From positions 1-41,751 of the IMG/VR virus record IMGVR_UViG_3300036826_000085: a stretch of 41,751 nucleotides of DNA; one strand, written 5' to 3'. The notes under the pieces are model-generated. The model was given only the letters and a program-made list of their open reading frames with translations. It was not told where the DNA came from and did not search any database. Made by a program: the position numbers and the translations under genes. Positions 3,031 to 20,529 of the stretch are shown here, in pieces (position 1 is the stretch's first letter; each line of letters starts with the position of its first letter). The DNA comes from a virus.

Positions 3031-3042
3031 CCGAGGATGACC

Positions 3043-4551
3043 ATGGCCAAGCGCGATGTGCTGGAAGATGAGCTGGATGATCTCCTCGACGGCGTCGATC
3101 CCGAAGAGACCGACGACGCCGTCGTCGCGGACGACCACTGCGAGATCTGCGGCGAGTACGAAGGCGAGTGCACCTGCGAGGATGCCGGAGACGAGAGCGA
3201 CGAAGCGGACGACGCGCCACCCGATCGACACCGCGGCGCCGACGAGCGTATTCTCGAGATCGCGCTCGAGGACATCGCGCCGGATCCGGAGCAGGCGCGC
3301 GACGAAGGCGCCGACGATTCGATCGGCGACGCGCTCGAGCCGAGCGACGTCCTGCCGCCGATCGAGGTGCGCACTCACCCCAATCCGAGCACGGACTATC
3401 CACCGTACATGATCATCGATGGCGAACGTCGCTGGCGTGGGTCGAAGAAGGCGGGTCGCACGCACATCCGCGCCTGGGTGAATGTCGACCCAGGCGACGA
3501 CGGAGATCGGCTGCTGCGCCAGGCGGTGCTGAATGAGGGCCAGCGCCTCAAGCCGATGGAGGAGGCGCGCACCTGGGCGCGCATTCGCGCGGCCAAGTGC
3601 TGGAACCTGCAGCAGCTTGCGGACGCGGTGCGCCGGCCGAAGTCGACGGTCAGCGATCGCCTCGCGCTGCTCGACGCGCCGGCGCCGTTTCAGCCGTTGT
3701 TCGCGAAGGGGATTCTCACCGCGGCCGCGGCACCGATCGTTCGCGAATTCCGCGACGTCCCGGAGCGGATCCTCCGGGAAGTCGTGGAGGAATGCAAGAC
3801 GAGCGATTGGGGCGAGCAGATCGACAATGGCGTGCCAGTGCCCGTCGAGCAGGTCCGGTCATCGCTTGACTACTTCCTCACGGGTGAGTGGGGAACCGAA
3901 CGGAAGCTCCGCCCGATCGACAAGAAGCTCGGCACCGAGTACACGGGCGCCACGTGCACGATCAAGGGCAAGAAGTACGCGATCGACGTCGAGGCCTACG
4001 ACGAGATCGCGACCGCGGCCGCAGTGACCGAGCGTAGCGCCGACACCAGCGCGCCCCGGCAGGAGCCGAAGTGGATGATCGAGCAGCGCGAGAAGCAACG
4101 GAAGGAGCGGATCGCGCACGAAAAGAAGCGCGTGTTGCACCGCGCGCAGTATGACGTGATCGCCGCGAAGCTGCCGACGAAGCTCGACGCCGACTGGTCG
4201 CTGTTCGTGATCGCACAACTCGTGAAGGAGATCCAGCAGGACGATCTCCGCGTCGTCTGCAAAGTGCTGAACCTCGAGCCGCCGAAGAAAGGGAAGTTCG
4301 GCGGCCTGAATTTCGACCGGGCCATTCTGGACTACGCGGTCAGTCTCGATGATGGCCCACCGCGCGTAAAACTCGCGCTGCAGGTGCTGCTCGCCCGCGA
4401 TCTCAACGTCAGCATGTACATGCTGGGCGGTCCGGAACGGCTGGCCGAGGCGGCGAAGCTCCTGAAGATCGACCTCTCAAAGATCAAACCGACTGCCGAC
4501 GAGAAGGCGAAGGCGCCGGCGAAACCCTCGACCAAGAAGAAACGCTCATGA
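3043..4551 (+). CDS. ParB-like protein with acidic Cys-containing N-terminus
   Basis: A 502-residue protein. Residues 1-65 are very acidic and include a knuckle-like C33-x2-C36 and C43-x-C45. Residues about 70-150 form the ParB/sulfiredoxin-type domain with the IIDGERRWRG signature (125-133), followed by the HTH region (about 165-215: NLQQLADAVRRPKSTVSDRLALL). The C-terminal part is long and Lys-rich (ending PAKPSTKKKRS). I chose the ATG at 3043 because GAGG at 3033-3036 sits six bases upstream; the ATG at 3037 is too close to it. No ParA is present in the window. The protein could be a centromere-binding partition protein, a DNA-modifying or nuclease-type ParB relative, or a regulator. ParB-domain proteins in phage recombination operons are common and mostly uncharacterised. 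Confidence 0.8.
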   Translation: MAKRDVLEDELDDLLDGVDPEETDDAVVADDHCEICGEYEGECTCEDAGDESDEADDAPPDRHRGADERILEIALEDIAPDPEQARDEGADDSIGDALEPSDVLPPIEVRTHPNPSTDYPPYMIIDGERRWRGSKKAGRTHIRAWVNVDPGDDGDRLLRQAVLNEGQRLKPMEEARTWARIRAAKCWNLQQLADAVRRPKSTVSDRLALLDAPAPFQPLFAKGILTAAAAPIVREFRDVPERILREVVEECKTSDWGEQIDNGVPVPVEQVRSSLDYFLTGEWGTERKLRPIDKKLGTEYTGATCTIKGKKYAIDVEAYDEIATAAAVTERSADTSAPRQEPKWMIEQREKQRKERIAHEKKRVLHRAQYDVIAAKLPTKLDADWSLFVIAQLVKEIQQDDLRVVCKVLNLEPPKKGKFGGLNFDRAILDYAVSLDDGPPRVKLALQVLLARDLNVSMYMLGGPERLAEAAKLLKIDLSKIKPTADEKAKAPAKPSTKKKRS

Positions 4552-5012
4552 GCGCCGCGACGAAGACCGTCAAACACTGCCCCCATTGCCGGGGCGAACT
4601 GGAGATGGTGCGCCCGCGTGGCGGCGAACCGTTCGAGCGCTGCACAGGCTGCGGCCGCGGAGCCGCCGCGGTGACGTTCCCGTACAACACGTTCATCAGG
4701 CACTTCGCGAAGGTCGTCACGAACGCCGGGCTGATCGCGGGCCGCGAAGACCCCCAGGGCGTCACGTTCCACACGCTCCGCCACACGTTCGCCAGCTGGA
4801 TGATCATGTCCGGCCAGGTCGACCTCTACACGGTCGCGCAGCTGCTCGGCGACACGCTTCAGGTCGTCGAAGACACCTACGCGCACTTGGCGCCGGACTT
4901 CAAGAAAAGAGCGATCGAGGCGATCAAGGGCACGATCGCCATTCCGTCGCTCGCGACGACCGACGCAACAACTGCCACCGGAACTGCCACCTTGGAGCCG
5001 ATTTCATGCTAA
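4548..5012 (+). CDS. Truncated tyrosine recombinase fused to a zinc ribbon
   Basis: A 154-residue protein. Residues 8-40 carry two CxxC pairs (CPHC at 11-14, CTGC at 32-35). Residues 46-118 match the C-terminal part of a phage/Xer-type integrase: an F-x-HFAKVVTNAGL helix, VTFHTLRHTFASWM (H75 and R78 of the catalytic HxxR), QLLGD (98-102) and TYAHLAPDF with candidate nucleophile Y111. Normal integrases have about 300-400 residues. This one lacks the core-binding domain, the first catalytic Arg and the Lys, and has Asp where the usual LGH histidine sits. It is therefore unlikely to integrate DNA alone. It could be a decayed integrase, a DNA-binding remnant or a split enzyme. ATGA overlap with the ParB-like gene. 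Confidence 0.75.
   Translation: MSAATKTVKHCPHCRGELEMVRPRGGEPFERCTGCGRGAAAVTFPYNTFIRHFAKVVTNAGLIAGREDPQGVTFHTLRHTFASWMIMSGQVDLYTVAQLLGDTLQVVEDTYAHLAPDFKKRAIEAIKGTIAIPSLATTDATTATGTATLEPISC
4973..4990 (+). repeat. 18-bp direct repeat, copy 1
   Basis: TGCCACCGGAACTGCCAC is found here, at the 3' end of the recombinase remnant, and again exactly at 5157-5174. The unit itself contains TGCCAC twice. The spacing between copies is 184 bases. Confidence 0.8.
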
Positions 5013-9572: not shown

Positions 9573-9947
9573 ATGAGAGACGCTCCGCTGGATGCTTCGC
9601 TGTTGGACACTGCGCTGAACTACGCCTCGCGCGAAACACGCAACCACGTTGCCGATGCGCTCGCGTGCCATCTGCACAACGACGGCCACGTGCTCGAGGG
9701 GAACACCGAGGCAAATGACGTCGAGTGGTTCGCCCGCAACCTGTACGAGCGCCTGCGGGACGGCGCGCTGCGCTGGGAGAACACACAGCCAAACGTTCAG
9801 GATACTTACCGCGAACACGCGCGCACGGTGTTGGCGGTGCTGCCAGACTTTCAATTACGCGTCGCCCGTCGTCTCATCACGCTGAGCAAGGTGGTGCGGG
9901 ACATCGAGCGCGCCGAACGGCTTCAACGGCGGGGCCGCGATCGTTGA
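9573..9947 (+). CDS. Hypothetical early protein
   Basis: A 124-residue, helical, charged protein (MRDAPLDASLLDTALNYASRE). It has HLHNDGHVLEG and WFARNLYERLRDGALRWE segments, and ends in a basic tail (ERAERLQRRGRDR). No ribosome binding site is evident before the ATG. The stop overlaps the start of the primase-helicase gene, so the two are probably translationally coupled. The 45 bases upstream contain TCCCCTTTTAGA, also present 400 bases earlier at the helicase stop. No known family recognised. Confidence 0.65.
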   Translation: MRDAPLDASLLDTALNYASRETRNHVADALACHLHNDGHVLEGNTEANDVEWFARNLYERLRDGALRWENTQPNVQDTYREHARTVLAVLPDFQLRVARRLITLSKVVRDIERAERLQRRGRDR

Positions 9948-12298
9948 TGCTGACTGCTGACGCCGCCGCCCTTGCCACGTTCATTGATGCCCTCTTCCGC
10001 TATGCGGATGACGGCACCTGGGTCGCGTGGCGCGCGTTCCGCGACGACGCGAAGGACAAGCCACCGGTCTTCATCGAGTGGAGCCAGGTCGCGCATAGCG
10101 CTGGGATCTTCGACGACGCCGTGCAGCACGCGACGGCGGCCGCGCAACACGAGTTCCCCGCGGTCTTCTGTCCGCCGATCGCGACGTTCCTCACCAAGCG
10201 CGCCCGCGAGGTCGATCTCGCGAACGGCTTGGCGCTGTCAGTGGAGTGCGACAACTCGCCGGCGGCCGCGCGTGCGACCCTCGAGCAGCTGCTGGGGCCT
10301 GCGACCGTCGTCGTCGCGTCCGGCGGCTTCACGCCCGACGCCGAGCCGAAGCTGCATCTGCACTGGCGGCTCGCCGAGCCGACGTCCGACGCGGAGTCGC
10401 ACGCGACGCTCAAGCGCGCACGCATCCTCGCGACCGCGATCGTCGGCGGCGATGCGACCAATGTGCCCGCGGTGCACCCGATCCGGTGGCCCGGATCCTG
10501 GCACCGGAAGGGTGAGCCGCGGCTGGCGACGATTGTTGCCTGTGACATCGATCGTGAGCTCGTGTTGTCTGACGCGCTCGAACAGTTGGCAAGCGTCGCG
10601 CCCAGGCGCCCGGAGACCGGTACACTTCCCGAGCAGAATGGCACGGGCGAGACCTCGCAGCTGATCGCGACGCTCTTGTCGGGATCCGCGATCCACGCGC
10701 CGCTCGTCGCGCTCGCGTATCGCTACCTCAAGGGTGGGATGTCGGATGCACAGTGCGTGCACACGCTGCGTGGGATCATGGACGCGATCCCCGAGGCGCA
10801 CCGCGGCGGCGCCGATCGTTGGAACGGCCACTATCGAGACGTGCCGCGGACGGTGCGTACCGCGCGGGAGAAGATCGGCATCGAGTCGCCGCCGGCCGCA
10901 CCGCCGGACCTATCAGAATTCCTGAATCAGTCGCCGGCCGTCGTCGTCGTCCGGAAGCAGGAGCCGCGCGACATCCCCGCGGAGCTGTTGACACCTCCCG
11001 GTGTCCTGGGCGACGTGGTCACGTATGGGCTGGCTTCCGCGGTGCGGCCGGTGCCGATCTTTGCCGTCCAGGCGGCGCTCGCGCTCGGATCGATCGTGTG
11101 CGGACGCCGGTACGTCACGAGCGAAGAGAACTACTCGAGCCTCTACTTCTTGAACGTCGCCCGCTCGGGCACCGGCAAGGAACACGCGAAAACAACGATC
11201 GAGGCTGTCTTGCTCGCGGCCGGAAAAGAGGGATTACTCGGAAGTTCGAGTTATTCGTCGGGAAGCGCGGTTTTTTCGGCGCTATTACAGAAGCCTCAAC
11301 ACTTGACGATCATCGACGAATTCGGAAAGTATCTGGAGGCGGCGTCGAACCAACGCGAGAACTGGAAGACCGAGGTGTTGACTCAGTTGATGGAAGCCTT
11401 CGGGCGCTGCCACGGCCGGATGATGACGCCTCAGTTCAGCACGATGACCGTGTCGGCGAAAGCCGCCGCGGATATGAAGCCGAAGACGATCACGCGGCCG
11501 GCGATCACGCTGCTCGCGATGACGACGCCGTCGACGTTCTACGACACGCTGCGCTCGACCAAGATCCAGGACGGGTTCCTGAACCGCTTTCTCGTCGTCG
11601 AGCACCAGGCGCCGCGCGAGCCGCGGCGGAAGCGCCAGGACGTCGACGCGCCGGCGTCCGTTGTCGCGTGGATCAAGCAGCTGCTCGAGCCGGAGGGAAA
11701 CCTCGACCCGTCGAACCTGATCGACGTCGCGCCGGATCCGACCGTGGTGCCGCTCACAGATCGGTCCCAGCTGCTCGCGAGCTCGTTCGAGCGTGAGATG
11801 TTGGATCTCTCCGTCCAGCTCGAGCAATCCGGACTGGGCGACATGCCGATCCGCGCGGCCGAGATCGCGCTCCGGCTCTCGCTGATCGTGTCGCTGTCTG
11901 AAGTGCCGGACACGCCGACGGTGTTGCACGACCACCTCGACTGGTCGCAGCGGTATGTCCGGTTCTTCCTCGAGCAAACGATCGCGATCGTCCGCGAGCG
12001 CGTGGCCGACAGCGCCACAGAACGGACTCGCAACGTCATTCTCGCTGCGATCCGTGGGGCCGGGAGCCAGGGCGTCACGGAACAGGAGCTCCACCGAGAG
12101 AAGCCGTTCATCAGCGTCGCGAAACGCGAGCGGCTCGAAGCGATCGAGTCACTGATCACGGCCGAACTCATCGCTTGGGCGAGCGTGCCAAGCGGCAAGC
12201 GAGGCCGTCCCCGCCAGGCGCTCGTCGGCATCAATGCCGATTTAACCGAATTGAATGAAAACGACCCGGAAAATTCGACCCCGCAAGACGCTGCGTAG
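9947..12298 (+). CDS. Primase-helicase (RepB-type primase domain plus DUF3987-like ATPase)
   Basis: A 783-residue protein. The N-terminal 220 residues resemble the RepB/archaeo-eukaryotic primase-like domain: LALSVECDNSPAAARATLE with an acidic pair, HLHWRL, NVPAVHPIRWPGSWHRKGEPR. The central part (about 340-600) is a DUF3987-type ATPase with Walker A SGTGKEH (407-413) and Walker B LTIIDEF (453-459). The C-terminal region (about 695-760) has a winged-helix-like segment (ILAAIRGAGSQGVTEQEL). Such proteins prime and unwind DNA for phage or plasmid replication. It is the last gene of the early operon and is followed by an AT-rich repeat region that could be its origin. ATG overlaps the stop of the gene before. 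Confidence 0.85.
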   Translation: MLTADAAALATFIDALFRYADDGTWVAWRAFRDDAKDKPPVFIEWSQVAHSAGIFDDAVQHATAAAQHEFPAVFCPPIATFLTKRAREVDLANGLALSVECDNSPAAARATLEQLLGPATVVVASGGFTPDAEPKLHLHWRLAEPTSDAESHATLKRARILATAIVGGDATNVPAVHPIRWPGSWHRKGEPRLATIVACDIDRELVLSDALEQLASVAPRRPETGTLPEQNGTGETSQLIATLLSGSAIHAPLVALAYRYLKGGMSDAQCVHTLRGIMDAIPEAHRGGADRWNGHYRDVPRTVRTAREKIGIESPPAAPPDLSEFLNQSPAVVVVRKQEPRDIPAELLTPPGVLGDVVTYGLASAVRPVPIFAVQAALALGSIVCGRRYVTSEENYSSLYFLNVARSGTGKEHAKTTIEAVLLAAGKEGLLGSSSYSSGSAVFSALLQKPQHLTIIDEFGKYLEAASNQRENWKTEVLTQLMEAFGRCHGRMMTPQFSTMTVSAKAAADMKPKTITRPAITLLAMTTPSTFYDTLRSTKIQDGFLNRFLVVEHQAPREPRRKRQDVDAPASVVAWIKQLLEPEGNLDPSNLIDVAPDPTVVPLTDRSQLLASSFEREMLDLSVQLEQSGLGDMPIRAAEIALRLSLIVSLSEVPDTPTVLHDHLDWSQRYVRFFLEQTIAIVRERVADSATERTRNVILAAIRGAGSQGVTEQELHREKPFISVAKRERLEAIESLITAELIAWASVPSGKRGRPRQALVGINADLTELNENDPENSTPQDAA

Positions 12299-12309
12299 CA
12301 ACGACTTCT

Positions 12310-12404
12310 GAATTGATCGAATTGATCGAATTAAATGCACTGGCCCGTCCCTCTGGTGGAGACGGGCCAGAAAAAGGGTACTAGGCAATCAATTCGATCA
12401 ATTC
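12310..12404. repeat. 17-bp inverted repeat built from 9-bp tandem units
   Basis: The left arm GAATTGATCGAATTGAT (12310-12326) and the right arm ATCAATTCGATCAATTC (12388-12404) are exact reverse complements. Each arm is itself two tandem copies of a 9-base unit, so both direct and inverted binding sites are present. Confidence 0.9.
12340..12370. terminator. GC-rich hairpin inside the inverted repeat, possible terminator
   Basis: CTGGCCCGTC (12340-12349) pairs perfectly with GACGGGCCAG (12361-12370) around an 11-base loop. On the plus strand it is followed by AAAAAGGG, not a T-run, so plus-strand intrinsic termination is uncertain. It might still end early transcription together with the outer stem. 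Confidence 0.45.
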
Positions 12405-12507
12405 AATTAAATAACATATATATCTCTATGTATATATACTACAACATCTTACAGAACCAGGCTCAGCCATTCACCGGAAGCGTCTAATTGAGTCCCAAAT
12501 ATTGAAA

Positions 12508-12921
12508 ATGCGCCTCGTGATGCCCGAGCCGCCGTCGCTGAACCAGATGATCGACATGGCCAAGAGGCGGACCCGCCGAAGCCGGACCGGTGGGTGGATG
12601 AGGAAGTCTCTGCCGGTCGTGTACGACCAGCGACTCGAGACGTATGAGCTCGAGTGCCTCGCTGCGCTCAGAATCGCCGGCATTCGGCTTCCAGTCGCTC
12701 CCTGGCCACGTTGGTGCCTCGAGGCGGCAGAGTTTCGGCTGCACTCGCTGCGTGACCCGGTCGAGCTCCTGGCGAGCCTCAAGTGGCCCGTCGACGCGCT
12801 GGTGCGGCTCGGCTTCGTCGCGGGCGACAGTCCGCGGGAGCTGTTGGGAACACCAGTCCCGACCCAGGTGATCGATCGCGGTAATCGCGGCGTGACGCTC
12901 ACCATCAGGTGCGTGCAATGA
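12508..12921 (+). CDS. RusA-like Holliday junction resolvase
   Basis: A 137-residue protein with the RusA fold pattern: an opening PPSLNQMID motif, a conserved Trp/Arg segment PWPRWCLEAAEFRL, then DPVELLASLKWPVDALVRLGFVAGDSPREL, where the family normally has D-x-DN-x3-K-x2-D-x-L-x3-G-x3-DD. The acidic residues are mostly kept, but the DN pair reads DPVE and the final DD reads GDS. The enzyme would cut four-way junctions or branched DNA in late replication. ATG at 12508 chosen; TTG at 12502 and a later ATG at 12520 are possible. No strong ribosome binding site in the AT-rich leader. ATGA overlap with the next gene. Confidence 0.72.
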   Translation: MRLVMPEPPSLNQMIDMAKRRTRRSRTGGWMRKSLPVVYDQRLETYELECLAALRIAGIRLPVAPWPRWCLEAAEFRLHSLRDPVELLASLKWPVDALVRLGFVAGDSPRELLGTPVPTQVIDRGNRGVTLTIRCVQ

Positions 12922-19880: not shown

Positions 19881-20529
19881 TCCAACACCGACGCCCGATC
19901 CGACACTGACACCGGCTCCGACTCCGGATCCGGCGCCACCGGCACCGACCGATCCGCCGGCTCCTGTTCCGCCGGCACCGGCACCGACCGATCCGCCGAA
20001 GCCGCCGGATCCGGCGCCTGTCGAATACAAGTTGGCCCTGCCCCAGAACACCGTGCTCACCGATGCGAGCCTCGAGAGGACGACCGCCTTTGCGCGCACG
20101 TCGGGACTCTCACCTGAGGTTGCGCAGAAGGCGCTCGAGTTCGCGGACAGCGAAGTGAAGACCGCGCGCGACGACTTGCTCGCGGCGTGGCAGCCCGGCG
20201 ATCCGGCGACGAACACCGCGCCTGGCGCCGAGTGGAAGAAAGCGCACGACGGCTACCTTGCGGCTGCGCTTGCGGACCCGGAGCTCGGCGCCGGCGACCA
20301 GATGAAGCTCGACGCCGCAGTCGCGAAGGCGCAGCAGGTCTTCGAGAAATACGCGACGCCCGAGTTCCGCACGCTGCTTGCGCGAACCGGCTACGGCTCC
20401 CACCCGGAAGTCCTGCGGGTGTTCGCGAACATCGGCAAGGCGATGGGCGAGCAGCTGCCGGTGCCGAGCAACGCACACGGCGACGGCCGGTTGTCGGACG
20501 CCGAAGTGTTCTACGCGAAGAAGGGATAA
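19873..20529 (+). CDS. Scaffold-like protein with Pro-rich N-terminus
   Basis: A 218-residue protein. Residues 1-48 are a Pro/Ala/Thr/Asp repeat (PDPTPTPDP and similar), built in the DNA from repeated CCGGCACCGACCGATCC-type units. Residues 50-218 are mostly helical and charged (SLERTTAFARTSGLSPEVAQ, DLLAAWQPGDP, KLDAAVAKAQQVFEKY), with the NAHGDGRLSDAEVFYAKKG ending seen in many BPP-1-type scaffold or head-protein genes. The position directly ahead of the major capsid gene fits a scaffold. The Pro-rich part may be a flexible linker. Confidence 0.8.
   Translation: MPDPTPTPDPTLTPAPTPDPAPPAPTDPPAPVPPAPAPTDPPKPPDPAPVEYKLALPQNTVLTDASLERTTAFARTSGLSPEVAQKALEFADSEVKTARDDLLAAWQPGDPATNTAPGAEWKKAHDGYLAAALADPELGAGDQMKLDAAVAKAQQVFEKYATPEFRTLLARTGYGSHPEVLRVFANIGKAMGEQLPVPSNAHGDGRLSDAEVFYAKKG

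Follow-up and report, generated by a model that had tools for sequence, protein, structure and literature searches.

In PICI and SaPI elements, the origin directly follows the initiator gene on its 3' side, and two sets of iterons flank an AT-rich region; primase and initiator are sometimes fused in these elements (PMC6092414). The C-terminal domain of the SCCmec Cch2 helicase binds direct repeats located just downstream of its own gene (PMC7581432). In pRN1, a stem-loop of low sequence conservation downstream of ORF904 is required as origin, and downstream stem-loop origins were already proposed by the same authors for some phages (PMC4234260). The P4 alpha protein is a fused primase-helicase, the winged helix of which binds the origin repeats (PMC4234260). 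A survey predicted DUF3987 domains as helicases fused to AEPs (PMC5862659).

In this study, a whole viral contig of 41,751 nucleotides (the window) was analyzed. The region from 12309 to about 12455 is proposed to be a replication origin recognized by the C-terminal winged helix of the protein encoded upstream, and the probability of this reading was put at roughly 0.8 from the sequence and the structural models. An earlier note on this DNA had suggested an origin here. The suggestion gained support because the anatomy is unique in the contig, the layout is conserved in relatives while the repeat words change, initiator-type domains were modelled in the protein, and the words of a related group track the wing of the winged helix.

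The primase-helicase gene (9725-12298, + strand; 857 aa) was investigated by using Pfam, AF2 models, Foldseek, and VIA-align. Pfam found only DUF3987 in the protein. The AF2 model of aa 409-857 (pLDDT 86.7) matched MCM helicases, with a Foldseek E of 1.5e-6; VIA-align to MCM gave a Z of 19.8 over 267 residues at 3.3 A with 14% identity. An MCM-like AAA+ helicase (DUF3987) was assigned to about aa 425-755 (10997-11989, + strand) from Pfam, AF2, and VIA-align. The same model showed a winged helix of helix-helix-helix-strand-strand order at model residues 356-427 (pLDDT about 82-90), corresponding to aa 764-836 (codons 12014-12232, + strand). This domain is the proposed reader of the window repeats, a role suggested by analogy with the D5 group considered below. 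The primase domain had no Pfam or PDB sequence match, and searching the sequences of solved structures with alignments of the primase and of the helicase gave nothing useful. The AF2 model of aa 74-393 (pLDDT 88.6) showed the AEP fold, and Foldseek matched it to RepB' (E 2.4e-8) and S-2L PrimPol (E 2.7e-8, TM 0.79 by target). An AEP primase domain was placed at about aa 74-400 by the AF2 model and Foldseek. Taken as models, these results suggested that the gene encodes a fused AEP primase, an MCM-like helicase, and a putative DNA-binding winged helix.

The element lies immediately 3' of this initiator-type gene, as do PICI/SaPI origins. A perfect inverted repeat begins at the 11th base past the stop (12298), and from the 12th base two tandem 9-bp GAATTGATC units were read directly from the sequence (left array; 12310-12318 and 12319-12327, + strand). 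Tandem units directly after the gene were thus present at 12310-12327, together with inverted copies, as the earlier note had stated. By inverted-repeat comparison, the left arm is TGAATTGATCGAATTGAT (12309-12326, + strand), and the right arm is the reverse complement of TGAATTGATCGAATTGAT (12388-12405, - strand). Each arm is 18 nt long and the arms are 61 nt apart; the repeat had previously been called perfect, which was correct, and 17 bases long, which was one base short. The right array consists of the inverted units ATCAATTC (12388-12395) and GATCAATTC (12396-12404) on the - strand. The 10-bp G+C hairpin reported inside the inverted repeat was found between both arrays, with CTGGCCCGTC at 12340-12349 and GACGGGCCAG at 12361-12370. 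A GC scan delimited an AT-rich block at 12387-12455, the proposed unwinding element, which overlaps the right array. The arrays enclose the hairpin. The AT-rich block coincides with the right array and continues past it, beside the arrays and not between them.

The whole contig was scanned for similar features. This was the sole inverted repeat with arms of at least 16 nt within 300 bp. Both the 50-mer and the 60-mer with the least GC in the contig (0.18 and 0.20, respectively) started at 12387, the next-lowest non-overlapping segments were at 0.38, and the GC minimum of the 41.7-kb contig fell at the element at every scale tried, in agreement with the earlier description of AT-rich DNA unlike the rest of the genome. 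For a 310-bp stretch around the stop and past it, the repeat score was 32, with a maximum of 10 among 1000 dinucleotide shuffles. Cumulative GC skew was uninformative, since 108 of the 200 random shuffles spanned at least as wide a range as the contig. The far side of the AT-rich block showed no clear repeat copy, and a coding-overlap check found no reading frame open across the element. A higher short-repeat score occurred at only one other site, at ~19891-20100, within the coding DNA that opens a protease-like ORF. The end of the AT-rich block, TACAACATCTTACAG (12440-12454), recurred almost unchanged as ACAACATCTTGCAG at the same position in the distant relative L201 (about 1386-1399), and a shorter resemblance to it was seen in the close relative L002. 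The next ORF (12502-12921, + strand) matched no family in Pfam or PHROG above cut-off; read by eye it may be RusA-like, which is a lead, and in the close relative L005 the repeats are likewise followed by a similar ORF.

Nucleotide relatives of the region were absent from phage records. Viral contigs encoding a related primase domain were gathered, and their downstream regions were scored against shuffles. Clustered direct and inverted short repeats were found directly after the gene in these relatives, each with its own word; 56 of 71 downstream regions beat the shuffles at p<0.01, and after collapsing to protein clusters sharing the primase domain the result was 25 of 30 (p<0.01). The C-terminal half of the protein was about 60% identical to that of the window in all three close relatives. 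Their repeat words were CACTTTAGA (L002), GCACTTCTG (L005), and TGGCACTTT (L175), the repeat score was matched by 0 of 1000 shuffles at each locus, and the lowest-GC stretch of each locus adjoined the element. Additional repeat copies occurred past the AT-rich block in all three. Further words included ATGTTGCCA (L003), CAGTCCACA (L015), and ATTTCCGG (L017). Conservation at the same place in relatives thus held for the layout of the repeats and failed for their sequence. Dam-type GATC control, suggested by the GATC in the window word, was rejected, since other words are without it.

L175 was retrieved with the C-terminal half. Its N-terminal domain is different (16% identity), the helicase, winged helix, and layout are kept, and its word resembles those of L002 and L005. 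Because L175 keeps helicase, winged helix, and repeats despite a different N-terminal domain, the repeats go with the C-terminal half. Distant DUF3987 relatives were mixed: the element was found in L183, L194, and L201, L207 was weak (13 of 1000 shuffles), and in many others the element was missing or the gene was followed by no gap. The element was also present in the isolated phages AcaML1, Cheetobro, and Aminay, which have a D5-type helicase; Cheetobro and Aminay are Mycobacterium phages. In BIP-1, cited for its stem-loop in PMC4234260, no tandem units were seen by eye.

With only four members, the clade of the window is too small for a wing-word covariation test. The well-sampled D5/DUF5906 group, with 78 distinct loci and an SF3/D5 helicase unlike that of the window, was used instead. 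Two tandem and two inverted units changed in concert in 71 of the 78 loci, with a typical start-to-start spacing of 77-79 bp between tandem and inverted units. Because hairpin pairing requires no match between units within one arm, the concerted change points to a protein that reads every unit. Among protein segments, with partial r corrected for overall distance, the best correlation with word distance was found near the C-terminal wing (aa 761-790, partial r about 0.5). The segment 601-620 scored nearly as high, yet it varies by only 3%, and its signal probably marks a clade. For 115 D5-group pairs sharing at least 85% identity in their bodies, rho of word distance was -0.78 with wing identity and 0.06 with body identity; these pairs are not phylogenetically independent, and the p-value is not literal.

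The bodies of L124 and L116 are 99.2% identical, yet both wing and word differ. Their DNA identity drops about 120 bp before the primase stop and is back about 400 bp after it, and similar block boundaries were found in L101/L070, L101/L066, and L124/L139. The single, sharply delimited block swapped between these near-identical phages, of about 0.5 kb, comprises the wing, the repeats, and the following segment. It is tentatively proposed, at slightly less than even odds, that wing and iterons form an exchangeable specificity cassette of ~0.5 kb, which is swapped whole between near-identical phages and changes origin identity. Owing to the adjacency of wing and repeats, linkage alone could move both together, without explaining the concerted change of the units. 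By eye, the ORF after the repeats in L070 (2918-3871) and in L124 (2446-3366) carries a second copy of the primase winged helix before a RuvC-like domain, and the corresponding ORF of L116 has no second copy. Within the first 150 nt past the primase stop, at least one frame was open in 77 of the 78 D5-group loci; the repeats of this group probably coincide in part with the beginning of the next gene, one unit being three codons. Codons as a general cause of the 9-bp period were rejected, as the units of the window, its relatives, and Cheetobro sit in non-coding-looking DNA.

The covariation with the wing also bears on an alternative in which the words serve the primase domain as single-strand priming sites and are not targets of the winged helix. 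The prim-pol of phage NrS-1 recognizes the specific motif 5'-TTTGGTTA-3' (PMC8718748), and an AEP primase domain is likewise found in the window protein. However, L175 differs in its N-terminal domain yet keeps the helicase, the winged helix, and a word resembling the L002 and L005 words, and in the D5 group it is the C-terminal wing, and not the primase, that the word tracks, which makes this explanation improbable. A minor extra role of the repeats as primer start sites is compatible with the origin.

A function in RNA or transcription was rated slightly lower still. The hairpin would stop or attenuate early transcription, the former having been raised by the earlier note, or the repeats would be operators for a regulator of the next operon. 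The predicted transcript fold is very stable (-51.8 kcal/mol, z -6.9), and one weak promoter-like match lies inside the AT-rich block. However, termination at the hairpin found no positive support, as there is no T-run after it and no + strand terminator was found. Rfam gave no family near threshold, the best match being a chance-level miR-393 (E 0.67). Pairing alone leaves the matched, co-changing units within the same arm unexplained, and D5-group words follow the wing of the primase itself. A partition or recombination site is very improbable: the window has both a ParB-like gene (3037-4551), for which the element would be parS, and, following it, a small integrase-like ORF (154 aa, 4548-5012) that matches only the C-terminal part of tyrosine integrases and could have its site here, but the ParB-like gene is 8 kb from the element, and the element comes after the primase across numerous contigs and phages that are unrelated, each having its own word.

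For the proposed origin, the C-terminal winged helix of the upstream gene's protein would bind the 9-bp units, and the inverted arrays would position two helicase assemblies facing opposite ways, giving a bidirectional start. The MCM-like domain would melt the adjoining AT-rich block, and the fused AEP primase would begin synthesis on the exposed strands, the steps presumably occurring in this order. Several points count against the origin reading: the wing covariation comes from a group with an SF3/D5 helicase, in which wing and repeats are DNA neighbours; the AT-rich block is beside the arrays; and many distant DUF3987 relatives are without the element.

A very similar origin is apparently carried by phages of several helicase classes. 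If the cassette proposal is true, the window carries one allele of a wing-iteron cassette system, and swaps of the cassette perhaps protect against cross-recognition, whether by competing phages, by satellites, or by prophages. The matched wing/word pairs, some of them in near-identical genomes, are a ready set for decoding how winged helices read repeats, and would predict origin-compatibility groups among phages.

Compared with the known systems, the window shares with SaPI/PICI an origin 3' of the initiator gene, short iterons, and an AT-rich melting region. However, a G+C hairpin lies between the window iterons, the AT-rich block being on one side, and the window carries structural genes and belongs to a phage instead of a satellite. 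The SCCmec Cch2 system differs from the window in its separate primase and in having only three AAGTG iterons and no long inverted repeat. The primase of P4 alpha is TOPRIM-type, unlike the AEP primase of the window, and the likeness drawn here is by description. The pRN1 ORF904 unites an AEP primase, a helicase, and a winged helix in a single protein, as the window protein is modelled to do, and a long stem-loop just downstream of such a gene was also found in the window. The pRN1 stem is 21 nt with a loop of 58 nt, and the window arms are 18 nt and 61 nt apart; pRN1 has no iterons, whereas tandem 9-bp units lie in the window arms. In place of the SF3 helicase of the pRN1 type, the window has DUF3987, modelled as an MCM-like AAA+ domain. 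On the best reading of these analogies, the window origin resembles the SaPI/PICI, Cch2, and pRN1 origins and would not be a strict member of any of them, because its AT-rich block lies beside the arrays, in contrast to PICI, and its helicase appears to be MCM-like instead of SF3, in contrast to pRN1.
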